A DNA stretch of 64,000 nt from Gammaproteobacteria bacterium (GTDB taxonomy: Bacteria; Pseudomonadota; Gammaproteobacteria; Ga0077554; Ga007554): the NCBI GenBank assembly GCA_040183005.1, contig JAMPIW010000007.1, positions 1,047,314 to 1,111,313 on the forward strand. The letters are read 5' to 3'. Each line of letters starts with the position of its first letter. The first letter of the stretch is position 1. Of this stretch, positions 19,892-32,736 are shown in pieces. Below the pieces are notes generated by a model, which was not told the DNA's origin, made no database searches, and saw only the letters and a program-made list of their open reading frames with translations. The position numbers were made by a program, and so were the translations under genes.

Positions 19892-20335
19892 TCAGAAGCT
19901 GAGCAGCTTCAACCCCCACTCCGGCCCACCCTTTCCGCGCAACATTACAAACAGCGGCCTGCCCTGTGTGCGCCAGAACTCCACAGACGCATCCAGAATT
20001 TCCAGAGCGGTCTCGAACTGATCCGGGACCTGTTCGGCAAAAACATCGAAATGATCGTACAAAATCACGTAACCTGGCGCTTCACGCCAGGAAAGGTCGG
20101 TGAGACAGTCTTCCAGCGCGTCCCAGTTACCGCCGAAATAATCAGGGAAATCCATGGCGCGGGCAATCTGACCCAGAAATTGCTCTTTGCCAAGGACGCC
20201 CTCTCCTTCCAGGTAAAAAAAAGCGTAGCCACAACGCTCAACTTCTTTTTCAATATCCACCACAGCTATCGCCGTATCAAGCAAATACATCCCGGCAGCT
20301 TCACTATCACGCAAAAACAATGACAAGCCGTTCAT
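19892..20335 (-). CDS. Barstar-family RNase inhibitor
   Basis: A 147-residue protein whose central part (IARAMDFPDYFGGNWDALEDCLTDLSW, about residues 57-83) is the barstar signature that binds and blocks barnase active sites. The C-terminal half is beta-rich, as in barstar. It has no signal peptide, so it acts in the cytoplasm. It begins 3 bp after the stop of the barnase-type RNase gene, making a toxin-immunity pair. The start is ATG. About 50 residues longer than Bacillus barstar, mostly at the N-terminus. Confidence 0.85.
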   Translation of the reverse strand: MNGLSLFLRDSEAAGMYLLDTAIAVVDIEKEVERCGYAFFYLEGEGVLGKEQFLGQIARAMDFPDYFGGNWDALEDCLTDLSWREAPGYVILYDHFDVFAEQVPDQFETALEILDASVEFWRTQGRPLFVMLRGKGGPEWGLKLLSF

Positions 20336-20338
20336 AAA

Positions 20339-20770
20339 CTACTCCTTGATCCGCCTGAAAGTGCTGTAGTGATCACTTGTATAGTAAAGCTCACCACCCA
20401 TCCCGGCGATAATGCGCCGGGCGCCACGGTCGCGGGAACCGGGCGTCTTGACAGTATATTCCTTGTAATAGCCGCGCTCACGCGAGGGCAGGCGCCTTTC
20501 CCGGTTACCGAAGGTCGAGCCGTCCTTGCCATAGGGGAATGGCCCACCCTGCTGGATGAGTTTCAGCGTCTCGCGCGCTTCAGGAGGAAGATCGCTGGCG
20601 ACAATAACGCCCAAACCTTGCGGCTTGGCTGCGTTATCACCAAAAAAATTAAAAGCCAACTGGTGTTGGTCATTCGCACCGGCCACCGCAGGGTGCAGCC
20701 CTACAGCCAGCAACAAAACAGCCGACAACAACCACAGTGCGATGGCGCGCCCTACTCCTCGACGCTCCAT
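20339..20770 (-). CDS. Secreted barnase-type (T1/N1) ribonuclease
   Basis: A 143-residue exported guanyl-preferring endoribonuclease. A signal peptide covers about residues 1-30 (cleavage near AVAGA). The mature part carries the barnase-like core FGNRERRLP, GYYKEYTV (Glu104, equivalent to the general base), RDRGARRI (substrate-phosphate arginines) and TSDHYSTF (His134, general acid). It overlaps the diguanylate cyclase gene by 19 bp and is followed 3 bp later by barstar. In such pairs the inhibitor protects the cytoplasm before export; the target, nutrient RNA or competitor cells, cannot be told from sequence. Confidence 0.88.
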   Translation of the reverse strand: MERRGVGRAIALWLLSAVLLLAVGLHPAVAGANDQHQLAFNFFGDNAAKPQGLGVIVASDLPPEARETLKLIQQGGPFPYGKDGSTFGNRERRLPSRERGYYKEYTVKTPGSRDRGARRIIAGMGGELYYTSDHYSTFRRIKE

Positions 20771-23430: not shown

Positions 23431-23808
23431 TCACCGTTCAAAGCGCTCGATTTTGAGTGACTCGATAGGCACGAAATGCTTGATGTTGCCGGTGAGTAAG
23501 ATGAGATTATGTTCCAACGCGGTGGCGGCGATGAGCGCATCACCCAACTGCAATCCGTCACTCAAAGACAATGCCTCCATCAAGGCGGTCGCGCGTTCGG
23601 TAATTGCAGGTGTCAGCGGCAGGCGTTGCGTTCTGCGCATCTCGAAACTTTTTTGCACTGCGGCCATCTCCGCTTTGCTGCGAAAGCCCTGCAACAACTC
23701 AAGCCACGTGACCGCTGAAATGGTCAGGTTCGGCAACTGATCGAGCCGCCGTGTTGCTTGTGGTAGGCCGCGCAGATGCCAGATCAATACATCGGTATCC
23801 ACCAGCAT
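23431..23808 (-). CDS. VapC-type PIN-domain toxin
   Basis: A 125-residue PIN-domain endoribonuclease of a type II toxin-antitoxin pair. The acidic metal site fits Asp4 (LVDTDVLIW), Glu37 (WLELLQG) and Asp90 (LQLGDALIAATA). Such toxins usually cleave tRNA or rRNA. The ATG immediately follows the TAA of the upstream antitoxin gene, so translation is coupled. It sits with its antitoxin between two 44-bp direct repeats next to dapB. Confidence 0.85.
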   Translation of the reverse strand: MLVDTDVLIWHLRGLPQATRRLDQLPNLTISAVTWLELLQGFRSKAEMAAVQKSFEMRRTQRLPLTPAITERATALMEALSLSDGLQLGDALIAATALEHNLILLTGNIKHFVPIESLKIERFER

Positions 23809-24069
23809 TTACGGCTCCTGTTCGCGTGAGAAGCGTGGCGCGCGCAGCTTGTGCAGATAAGCGTCCACGTCCGCCATGTCTTCGCGATCACGCCAAATGC
23901 CGAATGCAGGATCGTTGGTGACAAAGGGTTCTGCCTGATTCGCGGCAGTCTGCTCCGCCTCTTCCTCGATGCGCACAGTCACCCGCGCATTGCTCTTTGC
24001 GTGCAACCGCTCGCGCCAATCCTGGGGCAGATCGTCCACCTTTACATGCTCAATTACAATCGCATTCAT
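23809..24069 (-). CDS. Antitoxin partner of the PIN-domain toxin
   Basis: An 86-residue protein that begins MNAIVIEHVKVDDLPQDW, a start seen in small antitoxins found upstream of PIN genes. An acidic, Pro- and Arg-containing C-terminus (about 45-86) would fit toxin binding. No classic AbrB or RHH motif is obvious, so the assignment rests mainly on position: it lies directly upstream of the toxin with no gap. Confidence 0.7.
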   Translation of the reverse strand: MNAIVIEHVKVDDLPQDWRERLHAKSNARVTVRIEEEAEQTAANQAEPFVTNDPAFGIWRDREDMADVDAYLHKLRAPRFSREQEP

Positions 24070-24242: not shown

Positions 24243-24290
24243 TTGACATTACCATCAATTGCAAATGATAATCATTCTCAATTGATGGTA
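24243..24290 (+). promoter_or_regulatory. Sigma-70 promoter with overlapping Fur box inside a 41-bp palindrome
   Basis: TTGACA (24243-24248) and TGATAA/GATAAT (from 24266 or 24267) are spaced 17-18 bp. The -10 lies in AAATGATAATCATT, a close match to the Fur operator. The whole segment 24250-24290 is a 41-bp palindrome whose outer 12-bp arms (TACCATCAATTG) match perfectly. Bound Fe-Fur would cover the promoter. It lies about 105 bp upstream of the peroxiredoxin-like gene. Confidence 0.8.
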
Positions 24291-24395
24291 GCTAAATCGA
24301 ACAAGCAAGCAAGGAACACCACCTGCGCCTCACCAGCAACGGAAAATTGATTCTGACGAAGCCCATTATTAAACCGCCACGAAGGAGACACGGCC

Positions 24396-24920
24396 ATGCT
24401 AACCATCGGACAAACCATCCCTGCCATCGACGTCGAAGCCCTTACGCCCCATGGCGACTATCGCATCATCAACCTGGGCGAACAGCGCAGCCGATGGAAG
24501 GTGCTGTTTTTCTGGCAGTGGGACTTCACCTTCACCTGCCTTATGAACATCCGCGCCTACCACGATCTGGTCAGGCAATTCACGGAAAGCGACGCAATAT
24601 TGCTCGGCGCAAGCGTGGACAGCGTTTATGCGCATCGCGCCTGGACCACCAACGGCCTGGGAAAAATCGGCTTCCCCCTCATCGGCGATGCCACGCGCCA
24701 GCTCGCCAGACGCTTTGGGGTGCTCTCCGGGGAAGAGGGCATGGCCGAGTATGCCACCTTCATTATCGACCCCAGCGGGCAAGTCGCCGGGGTTTCCACA
24801 AACCCAATGAATGTGTCACACAGCGCACGGGAGGCCTTGCACATGCTGCGGATGATCCAAACAGGCAGAGCTGCCGACCACGATCAGCCACCCTCCCCGC
24901 CCTACGGCAGAGTGGCATAG
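24396..24920 (+). CDS. AhpC/TSA-like peroxiredoxin-family protein with altered active site
   Basis: A 174-residue thioredoxin-fold protein. The peroxidatic cysteine position is Cys48 in WDFTFTCLMN, and Thr45 is kept. The canonical active-site Pro (PxxxTxxC) is Gln41, and the Arg found before the xTFxID segment is Tyr119 (AEYATFIIDPSG). No C-terminal resolving cysteine exists, so it would be 1-Cys if active. GAAGGAGAC forms a strong ribosome site before the ATG. A Fur-box promoter lies upstream, so it is probably iron-repressed. Either a divergent peroxidase or a thioredoxin-fold protein with another job. Confidence 0.8.
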   Translation: MLTIGQTIPAIDVEALTPHGDYRIINLGEQRSRWKVLFFWQWDFTFTCLMNIRAYHDLVRQFTESDAILLGASVDSVYAHRAWTTNGLGKIGFPLIGDATRQLARRFGVLSGEEGMAEYATFIIDPSGQVAGVSTNPMNVSHSAREALHMLRMIQTGRAADHDQPPSPPYGRVA

Positions 24921-29936: not shown

Positions 29937-30773
29937 ATGCGAAAACTTGAACAGCTTGATTTTGACAATACGTTTGCCCGCCTGCCGGACATATTTCACA
30001 GCCGTCTCCACCCTACCCCGCTACCTGAGCCTTATCTGGTCAGCTTCAACGCGAACGCCGCCCCATTGATTGACTTGGACAGTGCCGAAACCCAGCGCGC
30101 TGACTTCGCTGAATATTTCATTGGCAACCGTTTGCTGCCCGGTTGCGAGCCACTGGCGATGCTCTATGCCGGGCACCAGTTTGGCCACTATGTGCCGCAA
30201 CTGGGGGATGGGCGCGCGGTATTGCTTGGTGAAGTCAAGAATAGCGCGGGGGAATACTGGGATGTCCAGCTCAAAGGCGCCGGGCGCACCCCTTACTCAC
30301 GCAATGGCGATGGCCGTGCCGTGCTGCGTTCCAGCATCCGCGAATATTTGTGTTCGGAGGCCATGCATGGTCTGGGCATACCTACGTCGCGCGCCTTGTG
30401 TATCGTGGGCAGCGATCACAGGGTTTACCGCGAGCAGGTTGAAACCGCTGCGGTAGTTACACGCATCGCGCCCTCGCACGTGCGTTTTGGCTCGTTTGAA
30501 GTGTTTTTCTATCGCGGACAGAACCAGCCTCTTGCCATGCTTGCCGATTACGTCATCGCCAGGCATTTTCCGCGCTTGACTGAAGCACCGGACAAATACC
30601 CACGTTTTCTCAACGAAGTCGTAACACGCACCGCAACCCTGATGGCCCAATGGCAAGCGGTGGGATTTTCCCACGGTGTCATGAACACCGACAACATATC
30701 TATCCTGGGCCTCACCTTTGATTATGGCCCGTTCGGCTTTATGGAAAATTACGATCCCGGTTATATTTGTAAC
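29937..30773 (+). pseudogene. selO: SelO protein adenylyltransferase, 5' part split by an IS
   Basis: SelO (YdiU) is a pseudokinase-fold enzyme that AMPylates Ser/Thr/Tyr residues in redox control. This part encodes the first 279 residues, including [16 protein letters not shown], the nucleotide loop [20 protein letters not shown] and the catalytic segment [20 protein letters not shown]. After YICN an IS4-family element intervenes; read-through adds only a few residues and a stop at 30794. Removing the IS and one 9-bp target copy restores a continuous 489-codon frame with the part at 32104. The truncated product is unlikely to be active. Confidence 0.92.
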
Positions 30774-32094
30774 CAGAAGTGTCCGGTAATTTAATTGAAT
30801 AGATTCAATTGGTTATTGTCTTTCTGCATGCTCATTTGCGTCTCCGCATTTTTAAGTAATTGATCGAGTGGCGTTTTCTCGAAAAGAGTCAGGCTCAAAA
30901 TCTGTAGGATTGTGTAAAGCGAAGCCTCGGTATTGAGCCGCTTTTTCACGATGGCGACCACGACGTAAACCGCGATGGCGATCCATATTTGCGTCTTGAC
31001 TGCATTCTCGGTGGTGCCATAGAACCGCTTGATTCGAAGATGCTGTTTGATCCACTTGAAGAATAGCTCGACCTGCCAGCGGCAACGATAAAGCTGAGCG
31101 ATGGTCAGCGCAGGCAGGTCGAAGTTGTTGGTCAGAAAGACCAGAAACCTGTCGTGTTCGGCATCGTAGAACTTGATGCGTCGCAGGTGCTGCGGGTAAT
31201 CCTTGCTGGCCTTGCGAGCAGTCAATGCAATGGTCTGGTCGCAGCGCAGTCCAGTGGACTTGTCCACGGTGCGAGAGTAGACGCGACGAAAGAGCAGATT
31301 GGATTTGCCACGGATGACAAAGAACGCCTGTGCTTGATGCAGGGTGAACCAGCGAGCGAAGTCGGTGAAGCCACGATCCATGATGTAAAAGCTGCCGGCT
31401 TCGGGTATCAGGATATCGAGCACATTGACCTCGTGCATCTTGCCATCGCTGATGTGGATGAAGGTTGGAATGTTGCCGCGCAGGTCGAGCAGCGTATGCA
31501 TCTTGACGGCAGCTTTGGTGGAGCGGAAGCGTGCCCACGGAAAGACGCTCAAGCACAGGTCGATGGTCGTGGTATCGAGTGCGTAGACCGTCTGTTCCAG
31601 TTCGACCGCAAAGCTGTCGCTGGCGTAAAGCTTTCTGGCGGTCTGGATTAAGCTCATCGCGAAATCCGCGTAGATGCGACAGTCGCGTTGCTCGTTGGCA
31701 TCGGCCAGCGTGCTCTTGGCGATGTTGCCTCGTATGCCCAAGTGATAGAGCTTGGCTTGGTGGGCGCGCAGACAGGTTTCGATGTCGCGCAGGCTTTCGC
31801 GGTAAGTCAGCTGCGCGAACGCCATGCAGAGAAATTGATCGAGATGCGAAAAAGTCTTGGTGGGATATTTGGAAGGGTAGCGCTGCACGCAGCGACGGAA
31901 TGTGTGAAGGGGCAAATGCTCCATGAGTTGTGCGAACACCAACTGGCCTGAATACATGACGGAAACTCCTGGGGGGAAAGCCCCAGTTTCCCAAAAAATT
32001 CACGTTCAAGTCGGTGACACCCCTAAACACACACTTTCCTATTCAACATCATCATGTTATATAGCCGTCTTTGCGAAATTGCCGGACACTTCTG
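30774..32094 (-). mobile_element. IS4-family insertion sequence, copy 1 (1321 bp)
   Basis: Terminal inverted repeats CAGAAGTGTCCGG at both ends and a 9-bp target duplication ATTTGTAAC (30765-30773 and 32095-32103) define the element exactly. It carries one transposase gene on the minus strand and interrupts selO. A nearly identical copy in the opposite orientation lies at 34327-35647. Confidence 0.93.
30791..31957 (-). CDS. IS4-family DDE transposase, copy 1
   Basis: A 388-residue transposase with an N-terminal DNA-binding region ([20 protein letters not shown]), the first catalytic Asp in [18 protein letters not shown], the second in [14 protein letters not shown], and the IS4 YREK-type segment [20 protein letters not shown] with the catalytic Glu. 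AGGAG precedes the ATG. It differs from copy 2 by one residue (Cys against Arg in NEQRDxRIYADF), so the two copies are recent. Confidence 0.93.
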
Positions 32095-32103
32095 ATTTGT
32101 AAC

Positions 32104-32736
32104 CATTCCGACCCTGCCGGGCGCTACGCCTATAATCAGCAGCCACAAATCGGCCTATGGAATCTCGCCTGCCTGGCACAGGCCTTGACGCCGATCATCT
32201 CGACGGAAGATGCGGAAGCAGCCCTTCAAAGCTATCGTTCGACCTACGCCGAGCGCTATACGGCATTAATGGGACAGAAACTGGGCCTGACTCACGCAAG
32301 CAAAGACGATGCTTCGCTGGTTAATACGCTATTGGACATGATGCACACCAGCCACGCCGACTACACCAACCTGTTCCGCAGTTTAAGCCATTTCAAGTCG
32401 GCACCCGGAGAGAAAAACGCTGCGTTGCGCGATCAATTCATCGACCGCACAGCGTTCGACACCTGGAGCGCATCTTATCGCGACCGCTTACAAAGGGAGC
32501 AAGGCTCGGATGCGGAACGCAAAACACGCATGAACAAGGTCAATCCAAAGTACATTTTACGCAATCATTTGGCGCAGACTGCCATCAACAAGGCCGAACA
32601 GGGGCGCGATTTTTCAGAAGTAGACCGCTTGTTGAGATTGCTCCAACATCCTTTTAACGAACAACCGGAGATGGAGGATTATGCCGCAACACCGCCGGAA
32701 TGGGCGCGCCACATTACAGTAAATTGCTCATCCTAA
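32104..32736 (+). pseudogene. selO: SelO, 3' part beyond the IS
   Basis: Encodes residues 280-489 of the original SelO: HSDPAGRYAYNQQPQIGLWNL continues YICN exactly as in E. coli YdiU (ICNHSD). The family C-terminus ([33 protein letters not shown]) is intact. No proper start or ribosome site exists here, so it is unlikely to be expressed as a useful protein. It overlaps the convergent trhO gene by 9 bp. Confidence 0.9.

Follow-up and report, generated by a model that had tools for sequence, protein, structure and literature searches.

A putative Fur-controlled pseudo-peroxiredoxin with a degenerate active site

The 64,000-nucleotide stretch of DNA analysed here (the window; C7:1047314-1111313 within a 3.33-Mb genome) carries a gene, prx, the product of which is, on balance, best read as a Fur-controlled, active-site-degenerate pseudo-peroxiredoxin, most likely one that forms rings or binds partners, with a single slow thiol, and not a peroxide scavenger. 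More tentatively, it may be an iron-locus peroxiredoxin that, in a lineage of Gammaproteobacteria, has turned into a true pseudoenzyme, i.e. a one-thiol ring protein made only under iron starvation and acting as a structural or regulatory partner, either of AhpC or of iron-uptake proteins. Both its lack of activity and its changed role are inferred.

Results

Fold and active-site residues

The prx reading frame, directly preceded by an AAGGAG-type ribosome site, encodes a protein that matches the Pfam AhpC-TSA domain (E=2.4e-24) and scores 94 bits, versus a curated cut-off of 272, with the AhpC equivalog TIGR03137 (NCBIfam), to which it is thus not assigned. Its AlphaFold2 model (47 sequences) has a mean pLDDT of 86.7, with values below 50 in the last 15 residues only, and the best PDB matches of the model are tryparedoxin peroxidase and human Prx1/Prx2. 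The window protein is accordingly of the AhpC/Prx1 type, with a confident Prx fold.

The original prediction held that Cys48 and Thr45 of the peroxidatic motif are retained, that Gln41 replaces the Pro of PxxxTxxC and that Tyr119 replaces the conserved Arg; it proposed alignment with AhpC/Prx families and inspection of close homologues as checks, both of which bear it out. The motif of the window protein reads FFWQWDFTFTC, and in PDB alignments, where Thr45 and Cys48 are matched, Gln41 falls at the site of the motif Pro and Tyr119 at that of the active-site Arg, both in M. tuberculosis AhpC (2bmx) and in four trypanosomatid tryparedoxin peroxidases; no Pro or Arg was found at the equivalent sites. 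An alignment of 53 homologues (loci L001-L020 and L033-L075, giving 63 proteins, 54 of them unique, with the broken homologue L058 dropped), which are the best search matches among the matches listed and not a random sample, has Thr45 and Cys48 throughout. Pro at position 41 and Arg at position 119 are present in all 48 homologues outside the clade of the window protein, and Gln and Tyr at these positions in all five inside it.

The two predicted active-site changes are real, although their number understated the case, since Glu51, Pro49 and the resolving Cys have been lost too. In the same alignment, Glu at position 51 and Pro at position 49 occur in 48/48 homologues outside the clade and in 0/5 inside, where Asn, His or Tyr and Leu or Phe, respectively, are found. 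The C-terminal resolving Cys (CPxxW/CxW) is absent, Cys48 being the sole Cys of the window protein, which does not, therefore, qualify as a typical 2-Cys peroxiredoxin. A second Arg, at position 142 in 48/48 homologues outside the clade, is His in the three members of the window's genus and Arg in G004 and G006. The new residues fixed in the clade include Gln41, Trp42, Thr47, His56 and Tyr119. Excerpts of the AnPrx6 study describe the active-site Arg as present in 'all known peroxiredoxins' and the P-X3-[TS]-X2-C motif as invariant, and report that in AnPrx6, a solved peroxiredoxin, the Arg forms a salt bridge with the Glu at the third position past the peroxidatic Cys (PMC5719442); Arg119 and Glu51 are thus lost as a pair.

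Distribution, descent and selection

The Gln41/Tyr119 clade comprises the five species found, some of the genomes compared being MAGs, in two genera: three members of the window's genus (g1), in which the orthologues of G003 and G001 are 97% and 90% identical to the window protein, together with G004 (69%) and G006 (about 64%). An orthologue is absent from three of the eight family genomes, i.e. G002 and G007, which are incomplete, and G005, which is 99% complete. The prx frame is intact in 5/5 clade species, dN/dS inside the clade is 0.08-0.18, and there is a strong excess of synonymous over non-synonymous change (p=6e-8, G001; p=7e-7, G003), a pattern indicating that prx is under constraint, with purifying selection and not decay.

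The tree places the clade, on a stem of 0.715 substitutions per site (support 95), as sister to the canonical protein L006 (G034, family f28), followed by five f191 proteins (support 100 each). These six relatives (L006; f191 L059 and L072-L075), the nearest to the window protein at 44-52% identity and of equal length, differ from it in having Pro41, Glu51, Arg119 and a C-terminal Cys (GGLxxCxW). A relative of the canonical sister gene, in G179 (L029/L058), is interrupted by a stop and a shift of frame, so loss is tolerated close by.

The clade descends from this canonical group, the members of which mostly adjoin TonB, siderophore or bacterioferritin genes. The G034 relative neighbours genes for a Lys/Orn monooxygenase, a decarboxylase and TonB receptors; a ferritin-family (bacterioferritin-like) gene is present at three of the five f191 loci, one of which also has TonB and ExbD; a TonB receptor gene adjoins prx at the fourth, and inspection of the ORFs, without Pfam, revealed no iron gene at the fifth (G669). 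Within the clade, the neighbours of prx in G004 are ExbD, a TonB receptor, a PKHD hydroxylase and IucA/IucC-type siderophore genes, while the G006 gene is flanked by a porin, an FMN-binding protein and PepSY, a weaker link to iron. In G001, an FMN-barrel gene (Pfam CREG/PNPOx), which we take to be HugZ-like, lies 5' of prx.

A family of small conserved proteins of about 95 aa with no Pfam match (L025:7497-7799, L026:7070-7450, L027:7393-7668 and L101:6462-6866) sits beside TonB-receptor, siderophore or prx genes. Its members lie 5' of prx in G004 and G006, near prx in G034 and 3' of a TonB receptor in G005. The window's genus has no convincing copy, with weak matches only (E 0.002-0.1), and for this reason the gene was dropped as part of the prx finding.

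Fur box, promoter and leader

The earlier description of the protein as iron-controlled gains support from a strong Fur box overlapping a promoter-like pair upstream of prx (Table 1). A match this close to the 19-base consensus is expected by chance 0.02 times per window, and the exact 13-base core has only three copies in the 3.3-Mb genome, i.e. 5' of prx, 5' of a solute-binding-protein gene and 5' of a hemP gene that adjoins an ExbB-ExbD-TonB receptor-PKHD hydroxylase group; a chance origin of the box was rejected on this expectation and on the rarity of the core. One-mismatch matches to the core (L086-L090, without L089) are weaker, are not clearly 5' of iron genes and look like chance. Box and promoter are kept in all three genus members having prx; within 260 bases upstream of the gene in G004, G006 and G034 no Fur box was seen. 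The sequence evidence is consistent with prx being Fur-controlled, with expression apparently turned on at low iron.

Table 1. Features of the prx locus, with window coordinates
Feature	Position	Strand	Details
Promoter-like pair	24243-24272	+	TTGACA (24243-24248), 18 bases, GATAAT (24267-24272); read by eye
Near-perfect palindrome with the Fur box at its centre	24250-24290	.	41 bases; 20-base arms, 90% complementary
Fur box	24261-24279	+	Core AATGATAATCATT at 24264-24276; 3 mismatches to GATAATGATAATCATTATC
hemP 3'-end remnant, between Fur box and prx	24312-24361	+	42/50 bases shared with the intact hemP of the genome
Putative pseudo-peroxiredoxin gene (prx)	24396-24920	+	ATG start, 174 aa; Gln41, Thr45, Cys48, Asn51, Tyr119, no resolving Cys

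The hemP remnant aligns to the intact copy elsewhere in the genome (Pfam hemP, 1.6e-17) with a score of 60, while the highest score among 200 shuffles was 27. The corresponding remnant in G003 is a 3' part (56/66 bases), and that in G001 is a 5' part. We infer an ancestral Fur box-hemP-prx order, with separate decay of hemP, as the simplest history.

The outer arms of the palindrome differ in sequence in the two sister species (G003 and G001), with complementarity retained; the fold z-scores of the three palindrome regions (in the window and upstream of L002 and L003) are -5.7, -2.7 and -4.1, with -2.3 for a hemP promoter control. Immediately 5' of the prx promoter are a toxin-like gene with a PIN domain and its small partner gene (23431-24069). 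G003 also has the PIN gene (98%), and G001 gave no match to it.

Discussion

The combined loss of the motif Pro, the active-site Arg, its partner Glu and the resolving Cys strongly suggests that the window protein is, as originally proposed, a poor peroxidase. In fold (TM about 0.84 to 3tue), in length and in having Thr45, Cys48, His80/Trp83 and the Tyr78 position it resembles typical 2-Cys Prx/AhpC proteins (2bmx, 3tue/4k1f), from which it differs in lacking those four features. With 1-Cys Prx6 proteins, such as AnPrx6, it shares a single reactive Cys and the lack of a resolving Cys; Prx6, however, retains the Pro, the Arg and a C-terminal domain, according to the AnPrx6 account, which also reports chaperone activity for that protein (PMC5719442), whereas the window protein belongs to the shorter type represented by AhpC.

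The survival of Thr45 in a protein without the Arg may be explained by a ring contact. Excerpts of the Tsa1 literature define the catalytic triad as Cys/Thr/Arg and describe a Thr contact at the dimer-dimer (ring) interface, delimited in Tsa1 by Tyr77 (PMC5024103). The ring contact pair of decameric peroxiredoxins is present in the window protein as Thr45 and Tyr78, with Tyr78 equated to Tsa1 Tyr77 by its spacing and by alignment to tryparedoxin peroxidase rather than to Tsa1 itself; the presence of the pair thus favours a role as a scaffold or partner that carries a single slow thiol. Since nearly all of the working residues have been lost from a gene that is under selection, the protein probably has some other job, and, with a canonical 2-Cys AhpC, at L099:1107-1709 on the minus strand, and a PrxQ encoded elsewhere in the genome, peroxide removal need not depend on prx. 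In the mechanism that we propose, Fur would leave its box at low iron, and the protein would then be made. Without the Arg, peroxide and thiolate would not be activated, such that Cys48 would be slow toward H2O2, and without a resolving Cys it would stay outside the normal AhpF/thioredoxin cycle; the protein perhaps mixes with the canonical AhpC or serves the iron-uptake machinery. Against a pseudoenzyme, the retention of Cys48 and Thr45 could point to some remaining peroxidase activity, and the case comes from five species in two genera, with patchy gene presence and with the Fur box seen in genus g1 only.

Residual activity is central to a different, in our judgement unlikely, explanation, by which the protein is still an active 1-Cys peroxidase, its pocket remodelled (Gln41, Trp42, Thr47 and Tyr119) for an unusual substrate or a low rate, and would serve when iron-dependent catalases cannot be made. 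The invariance of Cys48 and Thr45, the fixation of the pocket replacements, with no drift, and the bacterioferritin and TonB genes adjoining the canonical relatives are all consistent with such an enzyme, but it would have to work without both the Arg described for all known peroxiredoxins (PMC5719442) and its Glu partner, in a genome that already has canonical AhpC and PrxQ.

It is rather improbable that Cys48, in its new surroundings, is a ligand for heme, iron or a siderophore product, the protein being an iron or heme carrier or chaperone. The Fur box and hemP remnant, the HugZ-like FMN-barrel gene of G001 and the siderophore genes near the relatives in G004 and G034 would suit this role; context alone, however, does not demonstrate binding, the window protein has no recognisable metal- or heme-binding motif, and His80, being common to all 53 homologues, is not a new ligand. 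The original prediction had raised metal chemistry as a possible role, and the sequence, context and homologue analyses yielded no evidence specific to metal binding.

That prx is decaying and functionless, which the lost canonical residues, the long clade stem, the patchy gene presence and the broken G179 relative might suggest, is highly improbable and was rejected because dN/dS is low and the frames are intact in all five species, with promoter and Fur box also kept in the genus members having the gene.

If the pseudo-peroxiredoxin assignment is correct, a peroxiredoxin with Cys and Thr that lacks the Pro, Arg, Glu and resolving Cys would separate the catalytic roles of these residues from their fold and ring roles, and would be a natural pseudo-peroxiredoxin case linked to iron starvation, for which the canonical sister proteins are available for side-by-side comparison. 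No publication on such a protein was recognisable from titles and abstract starts in the open-licence literature.

Other features in the window

In the window, a DDE transposase insertion (30791-31957) divides selO into two parts (29937-30794 and 32071-32736), whereas in G001 and G003 selO is a single 489-aa frame. At 19892-20770 lies a gene for a barnase-like ribonuclease, with a barstar gene after it.
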